Source: Streptomyces avermitilis MA-4680 = NBRC 14893
GTDB taxonomy: Bacteria > Actinomycetota > Actinomycetes > Streptomycetales > Streptomycetaceae
Length of the DNA stretch: 64,000 bases
Assembly (NCBI RefSeq): GCF_000009765.2
Contig: NC_003155.5
Coordinates: 8,060,001 to 8,124,000, forward strand
Direction: 5' to 3'
Position numbers and translations under genes: made by a program
Notes under the pieces: model-generated
The model's database searches: none
What the model was told of the DNA's origin: nothing
The model's input: the letters and a program-made list of their open reading frames with translations, nothing else
Shown: piece after piece, positions 45,322 through 62,815 of the stretch
How the letters are laid out: every line of letters begins with the position of its first letter
How positions within the stretch are numbered: position 1 is the first letter of the stretch

Positions 45322-45645
45322 GCCGTGACCCTATTACGGGCCAAAAGGCCCCACGCGCGCGGGCCCGACCGCCGAGCCGTCCCGGCCTCGGGGGCAGGTC
45401 CGCCGCACCCGGTCCGCCGCCGGCCTGCGCCGGCCGCACCGCCGGGGCGGCCACCGTGGCCTTGGCCACAACCCATGAGGCGGCCGAGCCGGACGCCGAC
45501 CCGTAGGGAGGGACCCCATGCCCTGTCCGCACTGGTCACCAGCGGCGGGTGAGGATCTCCGGCCGAGGCCGAAAGCTGTCCACGGCTGTCCGCTATTCGG
45601 ACAGCACTGGCGGGCCTCCGCTGTGCGTCTGCTTTACTTGATCCC

Positions 45646-45732
45646 ATGACCACGACGAGCAGCCGCACCCTTGCGACCGAGGCGACCATGACGCCCGGTG
45701 CTCGCTGTATGTGTCGAATGTGCGCCTTCTAG
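45646..45732 (+). CDS. Cys/Met-rich leader peptide upstream of the methionine transporter
   Basis: An unannotated 28-codon frame, or 14 codons from the inner ATG at 45688, which has GAGG 5 bases upstream. The peptide ends MTPGARCMCRMCAF, so three Cys and two Met codons fall among the last eight before the TAG stop. It precedes metN by about 200 bases on the same strand. A short peptide with clustered codons for sulphur amino acids, before a sulphur amino acid transporter, is the pattern of an attenuation leader. The region 45322-45645 before it holds only short inverted repeats (for example CTGTCC-GCTATTC-GGACAG, 45586-45604) and no gene I can support. Confidence 0.6.
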   Translation: MTTTSSRTLATEATMTPGARCMCRMCAF

Positions 45733-45753
45733 AGGGCCCCCGCACCACCGCCT

Positions 45754-45777
45754 GGTCTCGCGCCCCGAAGCGAGACC
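45754..45777 (+). promoter_or_regulatory. Hairpin after the leader peptide (candidate attenuator)
   Basis: GGTCTCGC (45754-45761) pairs exactly with GCGAGACC (45770-45777) around GCCCCGAA, 21 bases after the leader peptide stop. A further weak stem, CGGTTC with GAACCG, lies at about 45838-45864. I found no conserved SAM-riboswitch core in this leader. Confidence 0.45.
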
Positions 45778-45938
45778 GCCGCCCCATGTCCGTACCCCGT
45801 ACGTGACCCGGGCTGCCCGCGCACACGTTCTCCCCCCCGGTTCCATCGCCATCGCGAGAACCGTGCCGCGTTCCCGACCGAATGCATCCGTGCCCGGCGC
45901 ACACCCACGCCCTGCACTCGACAGTGACGGAAACCCCA

Positions 45939-46982
45939 GTGATCACGACAACGGGCCTCACCAAGGTCTACCGCTCGCGCGGCCGCGAGGTCACCGCCCT
46001 CGACGGCGTCGATCTGCACGTCCGCGAAGGCGAGGTCTACGGCGTCATCGGCCAGTCCGGCGCCGGCAAGTCCTCGCTCATCCGCTGCGTCAACCTCCTG
46101 GAGCGTCCCACCTCCGGCACGGTCACCGTCGCCGGACAGGACCTCACCGCCCTCGCCGGCCGCGGCCCGCGCGCGGGCAAGGAGCTCCGCACGGCGCGCA
46201 GCCACATCGGGATGGTCTTCCAGCACTTCAACCTGCTGTCCTCGCGCACCGTCCAGGACAACGTCGAGCTGCCGCTCGAAATCCTCGGCGTCTCCGGCCG
46301 GGAGCGCGGCCGCAAGGCCCTCGAACTCCTCGACCTGGTCGGCCTCACCGACAAGGCCAAGGCCTACCCCGCCCAGCTCTCCGGCGGCCAGAAGCAGCGC
46401 GTCGGCATCGCCCGCGCCCTGGCCGGCGACCCGAAGGTGCTGCTCTCCGACGAGGCCACCAGCGCCCTCGACCCCGAGACCACCCGCTCCATCCTCCAGC
46501 TGCTGCGCGACCTGAACCGGCAGCTGGGCCTGACCGTCCTGCTCATCACCCATGAGATGAACGTCGTCAAGAGCATCTGCGACTCGGCCGCCCTGATGGA
46601 GAAGGGCCGCATCGTCGAGTCCGGCACCGTCAGCGAACTCCTCGGTACCCCCGGTTCCGAACTGGCGTCGGCGCTCTTCCCGGTGACCGGCGACGCCTCC
46701 GGCGACGACCGCACCGTCGTCGACGTCACCTTCCACGGCGAGGCCGCGACCCAGCCCGTCATCTCGCAGCTCTCGCGCACGTACAACATCGACATCTCGA
46801 TCCTCGGCGCCGCGATCGACACCGTCGGCGGCCTCCAGGTCGGCCGGATGCGCATCGAACTGCCCGGCCGTTACGAGGACAACGTGGTGCCGATCGGCTT
46901 CCTGCGCGAACAGGGTCTGCAGATCGACGTCGTCGACAAGTCGGACCAGGAGTCCGTACTGGTGAAGGAAGGTGCCAAGTGA
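45939..46982 (+). CDS. metN: Methionine ABC transporter ATP-binding protein
   Basis: A 347-residue ATPase of the D/L-methionine importer. Walker A is GQSGAGKSS, the Q-loop region MVFQHFNLLSSRTV, the signature LSGGQKQRVGIARAL and Walker B VLLSDEATSALDP. The C-terminal NIL domain (about residues 265-340) binds methionine and gives trans-inhibition in known MetN proteins. GTG 45939 was chosen as the start because the ABC domain begins ITTTGLTKVY; GTG 45924 is possible. It overlaps metI by GTGA. Confidence 0.94.
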   Translation: MITTTGLTKVYRSRGREVTALDGVDLHVREGEVYGVIGQSGAGKSSLIRCVNLLERPTSGTVTVAGQDLTALAGRGPRAGKELRTARSHIGMVFQHFNLLSSRTVQDNVELPLEILGVSGRERGRKALELLDLVGLTDKAKAYPAQLSGGQKQRVGIARALAGDPKVLLSDEATSALDPETTRSILQLLRDLNRQLGLTVLLITHEMNVVKSICDSAALMEKGRIVESGTVSELLGTPGSELASALFPVTGDASGDDRTVVDVTFHGEAATQPVISQLSRTYNIDISILGAAIDTVGGLQVGRMRIELPGRYEDNVVPIGFLREQGLQIDVVDKSDQESVLVKEGAK

Positions 46983-47758
46983 CCTGGTCCGAGATGCAGC
47001 CGCTGCTGTCCCAGGCGTGTTGGGACACGCTCTACATGGTCGGCTGGTCCACGCTCATAGCGATCGTCGGCGGACTCCCGCTCGGCCTCCTGCTCGTCCT
47101 GACCGACCGCGGCGGACTCCTCCAGAACGTCGTGGCGAACAAGGTCGTCGGGCAGATCGTGAACGTCGCCCGCTCACTGCCGTTCATCATCCTGATGGTG
47201 GCGTTGATGAACTTCACCCGCACCATCACGGGGACGACCATCGGCCGTGAGGCGGCGATCGTGCCGCTCGCGATCGGCGCGATCCCGTTCTTCGCGCGTC
47301 TGGTCGAGACGGCTGTCCGCGAAGTGGACGGCGGACTCGTCGAGGCCGTGCAGTCCATGGGCGGCAACACCTGGACCGTCGTCCGCAGGGTCCTCGTGCC
47401 GGAGTCCCTGCCCTCGCTGATCTCGTCGGCGACCACCACCATCGTCGCGCTCATCGGCTACTCCGCGATGGCCGGCACCGTCGGCGCCGGCGGCCTCGGC
47501 GACATCGCCATCCGCTACGGCTACCAGCGCTTCGAGACCGGCCTGATGTGGATCACCGTGGCGATCCTCGCCGTCGTCATCTCCCTCATCCAGTTCGCCG
47601 GCGACTACGCGGCCCGCGGACTGCACCGACGCGGCGGCCGGTCCGGTGTCGCGCCGAAGCTCAGGCTGCTGAAGGACAAGGCGCCCGCGGACAGGACGCC
47701 CGCGGCCGACGCCCCCACCGGCGAGGCGGCCACGGCCGACGTCGGCAAGGTCGCCTGA
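46979..47758 (+). CDS. metI: Methionine ABC transporter permease
   Basis: A 259-residue inner-membrane channel subunit with five to six helices. The ABC-coupling loop is EAVQSMGGNTWTVVRRVLVP. The core matches MetI (ARSLPFIILMVALMNFTRTI, GYSAMAGTVGAGGLGDIAIR). A ~45-residue Ala/Pro/Asp-rich cytoplasmic tail (KLRLLKDKAPADRTPAADAP) is unusual in length. It starts GTG, coupled to metN. Confidence 0.94.
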   Translation: MTWSEMQPLLSQACWDTLYMVGWSTLIAIVGGLPLGLLLVLTDRGGLLQNVVANKVVGQIVNVARSLPFIILMVALMNFTRTITGTTIGREAAIVPLAIGAIPFFARLVETAVREVDGGLVEAVQSMGGNTWTVVRRVLVPESLPSLISSATTTIVALIGYSAMAGTVGAGGLGDIAIRYGYQRFETGLMWITVAILAVVISLIQFAGDYAARGLHRRGGRSGVAPKLRLLKDKAPADRTPAADAPTGEAATADVGKVA

Positions 47759-47829: not shown

Positions 47830-48657
47830 GTGCGTAACACCGCCAAGATCACCACCGCTGTCCTCGCCGCCGGAGCCCTCACCCTCGGGCTCTCGGCCTG
47901 CGGCTCGGACAAGGACTCCGCCTCCGACACCAGTGGCCCGCTGATCGTCGCCGCGAGTCCCACCCCGCACGCCGAGATACTCGACTTCGTCAAGAAGAAC
48001 CTGGCGAAGAAGGCGGGCCTGGACCTGGAGGTCAAGGAGGTCACCGACTACGTCACGCCGAACACGGCGACCGAGGACGGCTCCGTCGGCGCCAACTACT
48101 TCCAGAACCAGCCCTACCTCGACGACTTCAACAAGAAGAAGGGCACCCACATCGTGCCCGTCGTCACGGTGCACCTGGAACCGCTCGGCCTCTACTCCCA
48201 CAAGGTCAAGAAGGCCGACGACCTCAAGAGCGGTGCGACCGTCGCCATCCCGAACGACACGGTCAACGAGGCGCGGGCGCTCAAGCTGCTCGACGCCAAC
48301 GGGATCATCACGCTGAAGAGCGGCGTGGGCAACGAAGCGACCCCGGGGGACATCACCAAGAACCCCAAGAACCTCAAGTTCAAGGAGCTGGAGGCGGCCC
48401 AGACCCCGCGCTCCCTGGACGACGTGGACGCCGCGGTGGTCAACGGCAACTACGCCATCTCCTCGGGCCTCAAGCCGGCCAAGGACGCCGTCGTCCTGGA
48501 GTCCCCGAAGGACAACCCCTACGGCAACTTCCTCGCGGTCAAGAAGGGCAACGAGAAGGACCCGCGCGTCAAGAAGCTCGCGAAGCTCCTCACCTCGCCC
48601 GAGGTGAAGAAGTTCATCGAGGACAAGTACGCCGGCTCCGTCATCCCGTCCTTCTGA
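47830..48657 (+). CDS. metQ: MetQ/NlpA-type methionine-binding lipoprotein (copy 1)
   Basis: A 275-residue lipoprotein that catches methionine outside the membrane. The lipobox is TLGLSAC (Cys at about residue 25), and the mature part begins with an Asp/Ser linker. The NLPA family is seen in IVAASPTPHAEILDFVKKNL, ANYFQNQPYLDDFNKKKGTH and ATVAIPNDTVNEARALKLL. The start is GTG at 47830 with GGAAAGG upstream. A second, similar gene follows 13 bases later. Confidence 0.92.
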   Translation: MRNTAKITTAVLAAGALTLGLSACGSDKDSASDTSGPLIVAASPTPHAEILDFVKKNLAKKAGLDLEVKEVTDYVTPNTATEDGSVGANYFQNQPYLDDFNKKKGTHIVPVVTVHLEPLGLYSHKVKKADDLKSGATVAIPNDTVNEARALKLLDANGIITLKSGVGNEATPGDITKNPKNLKFKELEAAQTPRSLDDVDAAVVNGNYAISSGLKPAKDAVVLESPKDNPYGNFLAVKKGNEKDPRVKKLAKLLTSPEVKKFIEDKYAGSVIPSF

Positions 48658-48670
48658 GGAGCTCTCAGCA

Positions 48671-49510
48671 ATGCGTAAGCCCGTCATTTCCGCGGCGGCG
48701 GCCGCACTCGCCCTCGGACTCGGCCTGACCGCCTGCGGCTCGGGCTCCGACTCCGACTCCGCGAAGAGCGGTGGCGACGGCGACGCACTCGTCGTCGGCG
48801 CCACCGCCGTCCCCGCCGGCGAGGTCCTCGCGTACATCAAGAAGGACCTCGCCGAGAAGGCGGGCCTCGACCTGGAGATCAAGGAGTTCACGGACTACGT
48901 CCTGCCGAACACCGCCCTCCAGGAAGGCGAACTGGACGCGAACCTCTACCAGAACCAGCCCTACCTCGACGACTTCAACAAGGCCAAGGGCACCGACCTG
49001 GTCCCCGTCGTCAAGGCGTACCTGCCGCCCATGGGCGTGTACTCGAAGAAGGTCACCGACGTCACGAAGCTCGCCGACGGAGCCACCGTCGCCGTACCCA
49101 ACGACACGACCAACGAGGGCCGCGCCCTCAAGCTCCTCGCGTCCAAGGGCGTCATCGCGCTCAAGGCGGGCGCCGGCACGGACGCGTCCCCCGCGGACAT
49201 CACGTCCAACCCCAAGCACCTGACGTTCAAGGAGCTGGAACCCGCCCAGCTGCCGCGCTCGCTCGACGACCTGGCCGCCGCGGTGATCAACAACAACTAC
49301 GCCCAGGACGCGGGTCTCAGCCCGACGAAGGACGCCATCCTTCTGGAGTCGGCGGAGAACAACCCGTACGCCAACCTCCTGGCCGTGAAGAAGGGCAACG
49401 AGGACGACCCGCGGGTCGAGAAACTCGCCAAGCTCCTCACCTCGCCCGAGGTGAAGAAGTTCATCGAGGACAAGTACCGCGGCTCGGTCCTGCCGGTCGT
49501 CTCCGGCTGA
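48671..49510 (+). CDS. metQ: MetQ/NlpA-type binding lipoprotein (copy 2)
   Basis: A 279-residue paralogue of the preceding gene. The lipobox is GLGLTAC (Cys at about residue 22), followed by a Ser/Gly/Asp linker. The same core motifs occur (NLYQNQPYLDDFNKAKGTD, ATVAVPNDTTNEGRALKLL), and both end with SPEVKKFIEDKY. Differences such as PAGEVLAYIKKDL and PPMGVYSKK may alter ligand preference, for example between L- and D-methionine or another sulphur compound. It shares one permease and ATPase with copy 1. Confidence 0.9.
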   Translation: MRKPVISAAAAALALGLGLTACGSGSDSDSAKSGGDGDALVVGATAVPAGEVLAYIKKDLAEKAGLDLEIKEFTDYVLPNTALQEGELDANLYQNQPYLDDFNKAKGTDLVPVVKAYLPPMGVYSKKVTDVTKLADGATVAVPNDTTNEGRALKLLASKGVIALKAGAGTDASPADITSNPKHLTFKELEPAQLPRSLDDLAAAVINNNYAQDAGLSPTKDAILLESAENNPYANLLAVKKGNEDDPRVEKLAKLLTSPEVKKFIEDKYRGSVLPVVSG

Positions 49511-62354: not shown

Positions 62355-62426
62355 TGCGCGATACTGGGATTGAACCAGTGACCTCTTCCGTGTCAGGGAA
62401 GCGCTCTCCCGCTGAGCTAATCGCGC
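62355..62426 (-). tRNA. tRNA-Val (GAC), copy 1
   Basis: 72 bases with acceptor stem GCGCGAT/ATCGCGC, D-arm GCTCAGCGGGAGAGC, anticodon arm CTTCC-CTGACAC-GGAAG with anticodon GAC, and T-arm ACTGG-TTCAATC-CCAGT. It is followed at the 3' end by A and CCA (62352-62354), so CCA seems to be encoded. It is the last gene of the minus-strand cluster. Confidence 0.95.
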
Positions 62427-62466
62427 GGGACGGGCCCTCGAGCTACAGGGACCAGGTGGTGCTGCG

Positions 62467-62538
62467 TGCGCGATACTGGGATTGAACCAGTGACCTCTTC
62501 CGTGTCAGGGAAGCGCTCTCCCGCTGAGCTAATCGCGC
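62467..62538 (-). tRNA. tRNA-Val (GAC), copy 2
   Basis: Identical to copy 1 over its 72 bases, including the GCGCGAT acceptor stem and anticodon GAC. The bases after the discriminator A are CGC, so CCA is not encoded. It lies 40 bases from copy 1. Confidence 0.95.
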
Positions 62539-62557
62539 GGGGATCCTTGCGGACCAG

Positions 62558-62629
62558 TGGACGATACTGGGATTGAACCAGTGACCTCTTCCGTGTCAGG
62601 GAAGCGCTCTCCCGCTGAGCTAATCGTCC
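62558..62629 (-). tRNA. tRNA-Val (GAC), copy 3 with a different acceptor stem
   Basis: 72 bases. The body from the D-arm to the T-arm is the same as in copies 1 and 2, but the acceptor stem is GGACGAT/ATCGTCC instead of GCGCGAT/ATCGCGC. The changes on the two sides compensate each other. CCA is not encoded. Its 5' end is 1 base from the encoded CCA of tRNA-Cys. Confidence 0.95.
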
Positions 62630-62630
62630 A

Positions 62631-62704
62631 TGGAGGTGGAGACGGGATTTGAACCCGTGTAGACGGCTTTGCAGGCCGTTGCCTCGCCTCTCGGCCACTC
62701 CACC
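62631..62704 (-). tRNA. tRNA-Cys (GCA)
   Basis: 71 bases plus an encoded CCA. Acceptor stem GGTGGAG/CTCCACC, discriminator T, and anticodon arm ACGGC-CTGCAAA-GCCGT with anticodon GCA. T-arm ACGGG-TTCAAAT-CCCGT. Confidence 0.95.
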
Positions 62705-62742
62705 AGGAGTGCAGGGATTCGGGAAGATCCCCTGTTCTTCCG

Positions 62743-62815
62743 AGCGGACGACGAGGCTCGAACTCGCGACCTCAACCTTGGCAAGGTTGCGCTCTACCAA
62801 CTGAGCTACGTCCGC
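62743..62815 (-). tRNA. tRNA-Gly (GCC)
   Basis: 73 bases with acceptor stem GCGGACG/CGTCCGC, D-arm GCTCAGTTGGTAGAGC, anticodon arm CAACC-TTGCCAA-GGTTG with anticodon GCC, and T-arm GCGAG-TTCGAGC-CTCGT. CCA is not encoded. It is the first tRNA after the cluster promoter. Confidence 0.95.

Follow-up and report, generated by a model that had tools for sequence, protein, structure and literature searches.

What does a short reading frame that ends in a cluster of cysteine and methionine codons do ahead of a methionine importer operon? The initial annotation of the window (the whole 64,000-nt stretch of the Streptomyces avermitilis genome analyzed here) took this frame, metL, to be a leader peptide on which ribosomes stall when Cys-tRNA or Met-tRNA is scarce, with a hairpin after the stop codon as the switch for metNIQ. 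Of this proposal the sulphur amino acid leader peptide held up, in its frame, its Cys/Met codons and its leaderless promoter geometry, and the hairpin as a switch did not. The metL leader probably lets ribosomes sense a shortage of sulphur amino acids, and we consider it fairly likely that this element controls the methionine importer by ribosome-mediated attenuation, in answer to both Cys and Met.

The metL frame and its promoter

The metL frame encodes MTTTSSRTLATEATMTPGARCMCRMCAF followed by a stop, and its last eight codons read C-M-C-R-M-C-A-F, five of them Cys or Met. If codons are drawn at the frequencies seen in 48 long, high-GC3 ORFs from the window (Cys 1.5%, Met 1.7%), a given eight codons would contain at least five Cys/Met with a probability of ~1.6e-6, before any correction for how many short ORFs there are. 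There is no run of consecutive Cys codons in the tail (C-M-C-R-M-C). The layout first described for this locus was found as such: the 28-aa frame is present, about 200 bases before metN (206 nt from stop to start), the perfect 8-bp hairpin follows 21 bases after the stop, and a SAM-riboswitch core is lacking, as no Rfam family reaches threshold in the leader (sub-threshold matches to the Rfam covariance models only, E 2.9 and 7.7). The interval originally marked, 45646-45777, excludes the promoter, an upstream palindrome and a conserved block adjoining metN, all of which are included in Table 1. The S. avermitilis genome holds a single copy of the element; no credible second copy was found in it by DNA search (next E 0.003 over 26 bases), and none by covariance model (next best E 1.4). 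A short ORF with the relevant codons near its end is what would be expected of a ribosome-mediated attenuator, and metL appears to be such an ORF; the operon downstream of it belongs to the same metabolism. Elsewhere in the window there is a cluster of five tRNA genes (62355-62815, minus strand).

Table 1. Features of the metL-metNIQ region, in positions of the window
Feature	Position	Strand	Remarks
17-bp palindrome TGTCCGCTATTCGGACA, probable regulator site	45587..45603	.	~58 to 42 bp upstream of start codon
-10 box TTTACT	45633..45638	+	spacing would put transcription start at the ATG (leaderless)
Leader peptide ORF (metL)	45646..45732	+	28 codons, ATG start, TAG stop; 28 aa
Three-way junction	45652..45708	+	inside the ORF; first 63 nt of the ORF
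P1	45652-45660/45700-45708	+	9 bp; one A-C mismatch in the window
P2	45664-45667/45672-45675	+	4 bp
P3	45676-45679+45681-45684 / 45692-45695+45696-45699	+	8 bp, bulged A 45680
CGAGGC, P3 5' strand, candidate alternative helix	45678..45683	+	complementary to 45755-45760 (hairpin B 5' arm GCCUCG)
Cys21-Met22-Cys23, probable sensing codons	45706..45714	+	Cys21 in 78/85; at least one tail Cys in 136/136
Invariant CGA-AUG, then YGY codon (Cys or Arg)	45715..45723	+	CGA, ATG 136/136; YGY 131/131 aligned
Conserved GGGCCCCC	45734..45741	+	directly 3' of stop
Hairpin B, GGTCTCGC-GCCCCGAA-GCGAGACC	45754..45777	+	perfect 8 bp; 21 nt after stop
Hairpin B conserved core CTCGC-GCCCCGAA-GCGAG	45757-45774	+	inner 5 pairs
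Variable C-rich, G-poor spacer (possible Rho-loading region)	45778..45877	+	
Conserved block before metN (CCGTGCCCGG...GCACTCGACAGTGACGGAA)	45888..45938	+	
metN, ABC ATPase with NIL domain	45939..46982	+	GTG start, 206 nt after leader stop
metI, permease	46979..47758	+	
metQ-like NlpA lipoprotein	47836..48657	+	start approximate
Second metQ-like NlpA lipoprotein	48671..49510	+	tandem with the first

The gene is already known in one species. A 2021 reannotation of S. lividans TK24 (PMC8079986) lists metL (SLIV_29928), MSTTSDRTPATEATTTPGARCMCRRMCAF, before metNIQ; the window leader is the same gene, in the same place and with the same ending, and a peptide identical to the S. lividans one was recovered at three of our loci (L147, L153 and L162). 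In the excerpts of that report at hand, metL is described as rich in Met and Thr, with a leaderless transcription start, unclear termination and hairpins without a typical intrinsic terminator; the account concerns one species, does not name Cys or give it a role, and contains no conservation analysis or RNA structure within the ORF. Among the literature matches listed, metNIQ occurs only in this paper, with most subscription journals lying outside the search, and the main text of a ribosome profiling study of S. coelicolor (PMC4895711) mentions no leader peptides, attenuation, methionine, SCO1557 or SCO1559. New to this analysis are the leader's near-universality in the genus, the junction within its ORF, the invariance of CGA-AUG and the findings that speak against a simple terminator hairpin.

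In the promoter, TTTACT is present in 132 of the 136 distinct leaders compared below, a -10-like hexamer ends 6 or 7 nt upstream of the start codon in 134/136, and an SD-like sequence upstream of the leader ATG was seen in 0/136. From this geometry the window metL transcript is predicted to be leaderless. Transcription starting downstream of 45732 would speak against a leader peptide, and is contradicted by the leaderless start given for the S. lividans orthologue in the excerpted part of PMC8079986. The palindrome further upstream, TGTCC-N7-GGACA, has no mismatch in 87 and one mismatch in 34 of the 136 leaders, and it starts at -57 to -59 in 118 of them. Across the whole genome there are two perfect matches to TGTCCGNNATNCGGACA, the window site included, and the reversed control pattern gave 1 and 1 matches with up to 1 mismatch. 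The other perfect match (L262, around 1501-1517) is at the beginning of an ORF named leuB-like by eye.

Conservation in Streptomyces and beyond

Leaders were picked as ORFs, 107 loci by a start-motif pattern and an ORF length of 15-60 aa (107/107 found) and later ones from a Cys/Met screen, with two that the screen missed (L221 and L225) added by hand. Removing repeats reduced 143 loci to 136 distinct leaders, a set that omits two Kitasatospora loci and further loci with leaders (L195, L196, L204, L205, L207, L209, L210, L212, L217 and several of L240-L251). The alignment comprises 131 of these, excluding L017, L131, L176, L219 and L226 (four of them without the hairpin B motif), and its L107 row is 20 nt shorter at the 3' end. 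The codon table was built from 107 ORFs, 87 of them distinct and 85 after excluding the two Kitasatospora ones. Spacer skew, folding with upstream RNA removed and folding for RBS pairing cover 126 of the 136 leaders, the footprint-masked folding covers 121 and the long-range pairing test 130.

Among leaders collected in this way, start, frame and stop are kept in 136/136, at lengths of 28-37 aa, and changes in length are of whole codons; the spacing between the leader ATG and metN falls into all three residue classes mod 3. Loss of the frame or of its Cys/Met codons in relatives, which would have counted against the leader peptide, was not seen. From codon 19 on, Cys and Met each occur at least once in every one of the 136, and Cys at least twice in 134. 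Insertions in frame add Met or Cys in some leaders (RLMCRMCAF, RMMCRMCAF, PCRMCAF) and neither in others (LLRMRAF, PVRRMCAF). No single Cys position is essential across the leaders, and Arg(CGA)-Met is invariant, with CGA-AUG forming the fifth and fourth codons before the stop in 136/136 and UGY or CGY (Cys or Arg) following it in 131/131 aligned leaders.

The choice of codons is constrained as well. Within their codon families in the window, CGA accounts for 2.5% of Arg codons, GCT for 2.3% and GGT for 9.0%, and the same codons are kept in the leaders in 85/85, 84/85 and 83/85 ORFs, while the amino acids encoded in the RNA loops (codons 6, 8, 9, 14 and 15) vary. This combination of frozen codon choice and variable loop residues argues against a purely peptide-level constraint, and the use of CGA as the sole Arg codon inside Streptomyces points to a constraint on the RNA or the codon. 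Over the 85 ORFs, synonymous sites are more conserved than amino acids, and therefore part of the signal is RNA rather than peptide.

In a DNA search with the 132-nt region as query (E <= 0.01), 193 of the 199 genomes sampled from the genus gave a match to the leader; these are search matches, a minority of them also read individually, and two are doubtful. Five of the six genomes without a match have no NIL-domain MetN, and in the sixth (G050) metN sits at a contig end with 2 nt upstream. Of two marginal matches, one genome (G022, E 0.003) has no NIL-domain MetN and in the other (G008, E 0.004) the locus ends before the metN start. Leaving G050 and G008 aside, there are 12 weaker-matching genomes with a NIL match, and 11 of these have a diverged leader before metN, for example MTGASSHHQAPETGTLSGARCPRRMCAR (L216); the twelfth (G073, L220) has only ~150 nt of upstream sequence.

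Related leaders occur outside the genus as well. Those of Kitasatospora read MTTTTTCIPTGATPAGERRMCRRMRRMCCR (L018) and MTTTTTCIPTGATPAGESRMCGRRMCRR (L019), and in another family of the order seven of eight loci gave a metN start, all seven with leaders carrying CGA-ATG (e.g., MIANTSSRMPAAAMAPGMMCCRFACRMCGC). By eye, the last leader codons and the stop in this family (L227-L234) can pair with a downstream arm, which is followed by a C/U-rich stretch and is more terminator-like than in Streptomyces. In family f19, which belongs to another order, candidate leaders picked for Cys/Met richness were found in four of seven loci, such as MTPQGRVMCRGTRMCGTARMCAMGGMPSMR (L250); L255, L259 and L261 were judged to be without a leader, L259 having a short ORF with two Cys. 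At a cutoff of E <= 0.1 the covariance model gave matches in 31 of 296 genomes of the class: 28 belong to the genus and three do not. One of these three is convincing (L295, from the order of f19, E 1.4e-4), and the other two have E 0.06. L295 has a GTG-start ORF (...GCTRCRRMCGC, with CGA-ATG) before a metN-like gene, and it shares GGGCCCCC and hairpin B, with one extra loop C, its 5' half being unrelated. Since the 5' halves of L295 and of the leaders in the other family differ from those of Streptomyces, the constant core is the (C)RMC ending and not the junction; in L295 this core includes GGGCCCC and hairpin B besides the RMC ending.

RNA structure of the leader

Covariation supports a three-way junction inside the ORF of the Streptomyces leaders. 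Taken together with the 5-bp core of hairpin B, it has 97.3% of cells paired in the 131 leaders, as opposed to 45.3% at most for slid versions. Double changes fall at 8 pairs and in 25 cells (2.0 and 2.4 in shuffles), counts that are inflated by relatedness among the leaders; 0 of 500 shuffles reached them and slid versions came to at most 6 pairs and 16 cells. The number of pair types is less telling, being reached in 48/500 shuffles. Folding of the junction gave a z of -2.6, with 3 of 200 shuffles folding as well. The P1 pair 10-69 is broken in 21 of the 131 rows, the window included, and when more of the window sequence is folded the outer part of P1 pairs differently in the minimum free energy structure. 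Neither Kitasatospora L018 (z -1.4) nor L295 (z 0.0) shows significant structure in the 5' half, and we therefore claim the junction for Streptomyces only.

Downstream of the stop, GGG[CT] and the hairpin B motif occur together in 131 of the 136 leaders and the motif occurs alone in one; the remaining four have neither and retain the peptide, as do Kitasatospora and the other family, where by reading the motif is also absent. The inner five pairs of hairpin B were counted and are kept across relatives, its outer three were judged by reading and differ among relatives (L005, for example), and a U-A to C-G double change is found in 4/131 leaders. The loop GCCCCGAA is nearly invariant. This is the hairpin that was initially proposed as the switch, a role that its features do not support: the stem is only 3-5 bp in some relatives, the hairpin is predicted in every ribosome state, as described below, and no U-tract or T-run comes after it, the next sequence being GCCGCCCCATG. 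The arrangement of a classical intrinsic-terminator attenuator, a GC hairpin and then a U-run, is thus absent. In the spacer that follows, C exceeds G in 126/126 leaders with a mean (C-G)/length of 0.17, a skew reached on either strand by 7% of 110-nt segments of the 64 kb. The block adjoining metN is almost as conserved as the leader itself.

An attenuator would be expected to have an alternative helix, and the candidate in metL pairs the 5' strand of P3 with the 5' arm of hairpin B. This helix has 94.0% of cells paired (slid versions at most 66.5%) and one double-changed pair, seen in two rows (L186 and L191); the percentage is equalled or exceeded in 48 of 500 shuffles, the number of double-changed pairs in 214. 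The complementarity would explain the invariant bulged A of P3. With the ribosome footprint masked, the mean probability of hairpin B over 121 leaders was 0.84 with no ribosome; a ribosome at Cys21 or Cys23 lowered it to 0.78 and 0.68, respectively, and one at the codon that follows CGA-AUG or at the stop raised it to 0.91 and 0.95. The mean probability of the P3:hairpin B helix was 0.11 at Cys21, 0.16 at Cys23 and ~0 at the stop. The trend runs in the direction that attenuation needs, yet hairpin B dominates throughout, is formed in all five ribosome states tried with the window sequence, and is almost unaffected by removing the RNA upstream of the ribosome. Folding thus gives no clean terminator/antiterminator switch, and with hairpin B dominant the mechanism we describe is one that we infer.

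Other pairings were considered and are not claimed. A classical antiterminator in which the ORF end (G-YGC-G) pairs with hairpin B (CGCGC) is 99.2% paired with one-sided wobble changes and no gain over shuffles, is at most about 5% probable in folding, and leader-end:hairpin pairing showed no covariation in the 131 leaders. RNAalifold proposed a helix of UGCG (P2 3' strand) with YGYG that is 98.5% paired, and a two-column slide gives 98.3%. For a long-range contact between the ORF end and GCACUCGAC near metN, the listed variants of 130 leaders contain no matched changes, sequestration of the metN RBS by the ORF was not seen in single-sequence folding of 126 leaders, and a GGGC:GCCC loop pseudoknot has as its sole support a joint loss in four leaders, the alignment in this region being out of register between leaders with TAG and with TGA stops.

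Mechanism and significance

The order of events that we propose is as follows. The transcript would start at the AUG of the 28-codon leaderless ORF, as reported for S. lividans and as promoter geometry suggests here, and the RNA of the ORF would fold on itself as the three-way junction for which there is covariation. Judging from the conserved frame and codons, ribosomes would translate metL to its Cys/Met/Arg-rich end. When charged Cys- and Met-tRNA are ample, the ribosome would reach the stop, the junction would refold behind it and hairpin B would form, after which transcription may stop in the C-rich spacer or metN may stay untranslated. When Cys or Met is short, the ribosome might halt on Cys21-Met22-Cys23 and open the junction, and the P3 strand CGAGGC set free in this way could conceivably capture the 5' arm of hairpin B so that the operon is read. 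A response to Cys and Met at once is compatible with the codons. That the junction is itself the sensor, with a halted ribosome freeing CGAGGC to disarm the U-less hairpin and the invariant rare CGA setting ribosome speed or holding an RNA contact, is a tentative reading on the doubtful side; under it, a halt on Cys21-Met22-Cys23 that disarms the hairpin would allow one element to read two sulphur amino acids.

Known leaders share parts of this design. In the excerpts available of a 2005 study (PMC1262725), Cys-codon leaders are predicted before cys operons of Mycobacterium and P. acnes and before cbs of B. longum, with Rho suggested and no conserved terminator hairpin, and no conserved RNA structure is given before methionine operons; polycysteine leaderless sORFs are attenuators in mycobacteria (Canestrari 2020, cited in the portion of PMC13236596 at hand). 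As far as these excerpts describe them, metL has in common with such leaders an actinobacterial host and the Cys codons near the stop and, with the mycobacterial sORFs, leaderless translation, but they have runs of Cys codons and precede cysteine/sulphur operons, whereas the metL tail alternates Cys and Met with Arg, ahead of an operon for methionine import, and its ORF contains a conserved RNA fold. By its codons, metL would therefore fall outside the mycobacterial polycysteine type. Classical attenuators (trp and leuS of Streptomyces, PMC1262725; ilvB1 of M. tuberculosis, PMC13236596; both in excerpt) likewise share a leader ORF, a hairpin after the stop and a related operon, but they use a U-tract terminator and an antiterminator, while in metL the U-tract is missing and a clear antiterminator did not emerge. 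In S. avermitilis and S. lividans, 3' ends that lack a U-tract and have a stem upstream are frequent, and the passages concerned (PMC8780764, PMC6742748) attribute them to Rho or processing. Rho-dependent termination is our first choice for metL, over U-less intrinsic termination or translational control.

Control of translation is nonetheless to be weighed. The leader could act as mycobacterial polycysteine leaders do, its translation governing access to the metN RBS, and leaderless Cys-codon ORFs indeed act so in mycobacteria (Canestrari 2020, as cited in the same excerpt of PMC13236596); the conserved block at the metN start would also fit. We find this rather unlikely, as the metN start lies 206 nt after the leader stop, the metN RBS pairs with the ORF end at 4% and with the stop-to-hairpin stretch at 3% in folding of 126 leaders, and GUCGA..GYGC:GCACUCGAC, though kept at 79-99% per pair in 130 leaders, has no matched changes. 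A riboswitch that binds a metabolite such as Met, SAM or Cys, with the ORF incidental or a folding aid, would account for the very strong nucleotide conservation, for the amino acid changes tolerated in the loops and for a covarying three-way junction. It is quite unlikely given that the same frame is kept with its start, stop and whole-codon indels, that the RNA begins at the AUG by promoter geometry, that Rfam gave no match, and that the CGA-AUG end of the ORF is the same in the other family and L295 despite a differing 5' half.

That same constancy of the ORF end could be taken as the mark of an arrest peptide, in which nascent ...R-M-[C/R]-x-x-stop stalls the ribosome on a small molecule rather than on tRNA charging. 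In 136/136 leaders the fifth and fourth residues before the stop are Arg-Met, a constancy that no Cys reaches, and the pair recurs in another family and in L295. Against this, the Arg codon is always CGA inside Streptomyces, the neighbouring residues vary and the Cys/Met richness is kept, making an arrest peptide very improbable. Finally, the main regulator might be a DNA-binding protein at the upstream palindrome (at most one mismatch in 121/136), with the leader peptide as a weak modifier, but this does not account for what is conserved beyond the promoter, namely the ORF, the junction and the hairpin, and we regard it as decidedly improbable.

With ribosome-mediated attenuation as the preferred reading, a short annotation in S. 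lividans becomes a regulatory element conserved across nearly all sampled Streptomyces, with codons and helices that can be tested. This points to methionine import that responds to a shortage of cysteine and not of methionine alone, and it makes metL a good case for attenuation in high-GC bacteria, where U-tract terminators are a minority.
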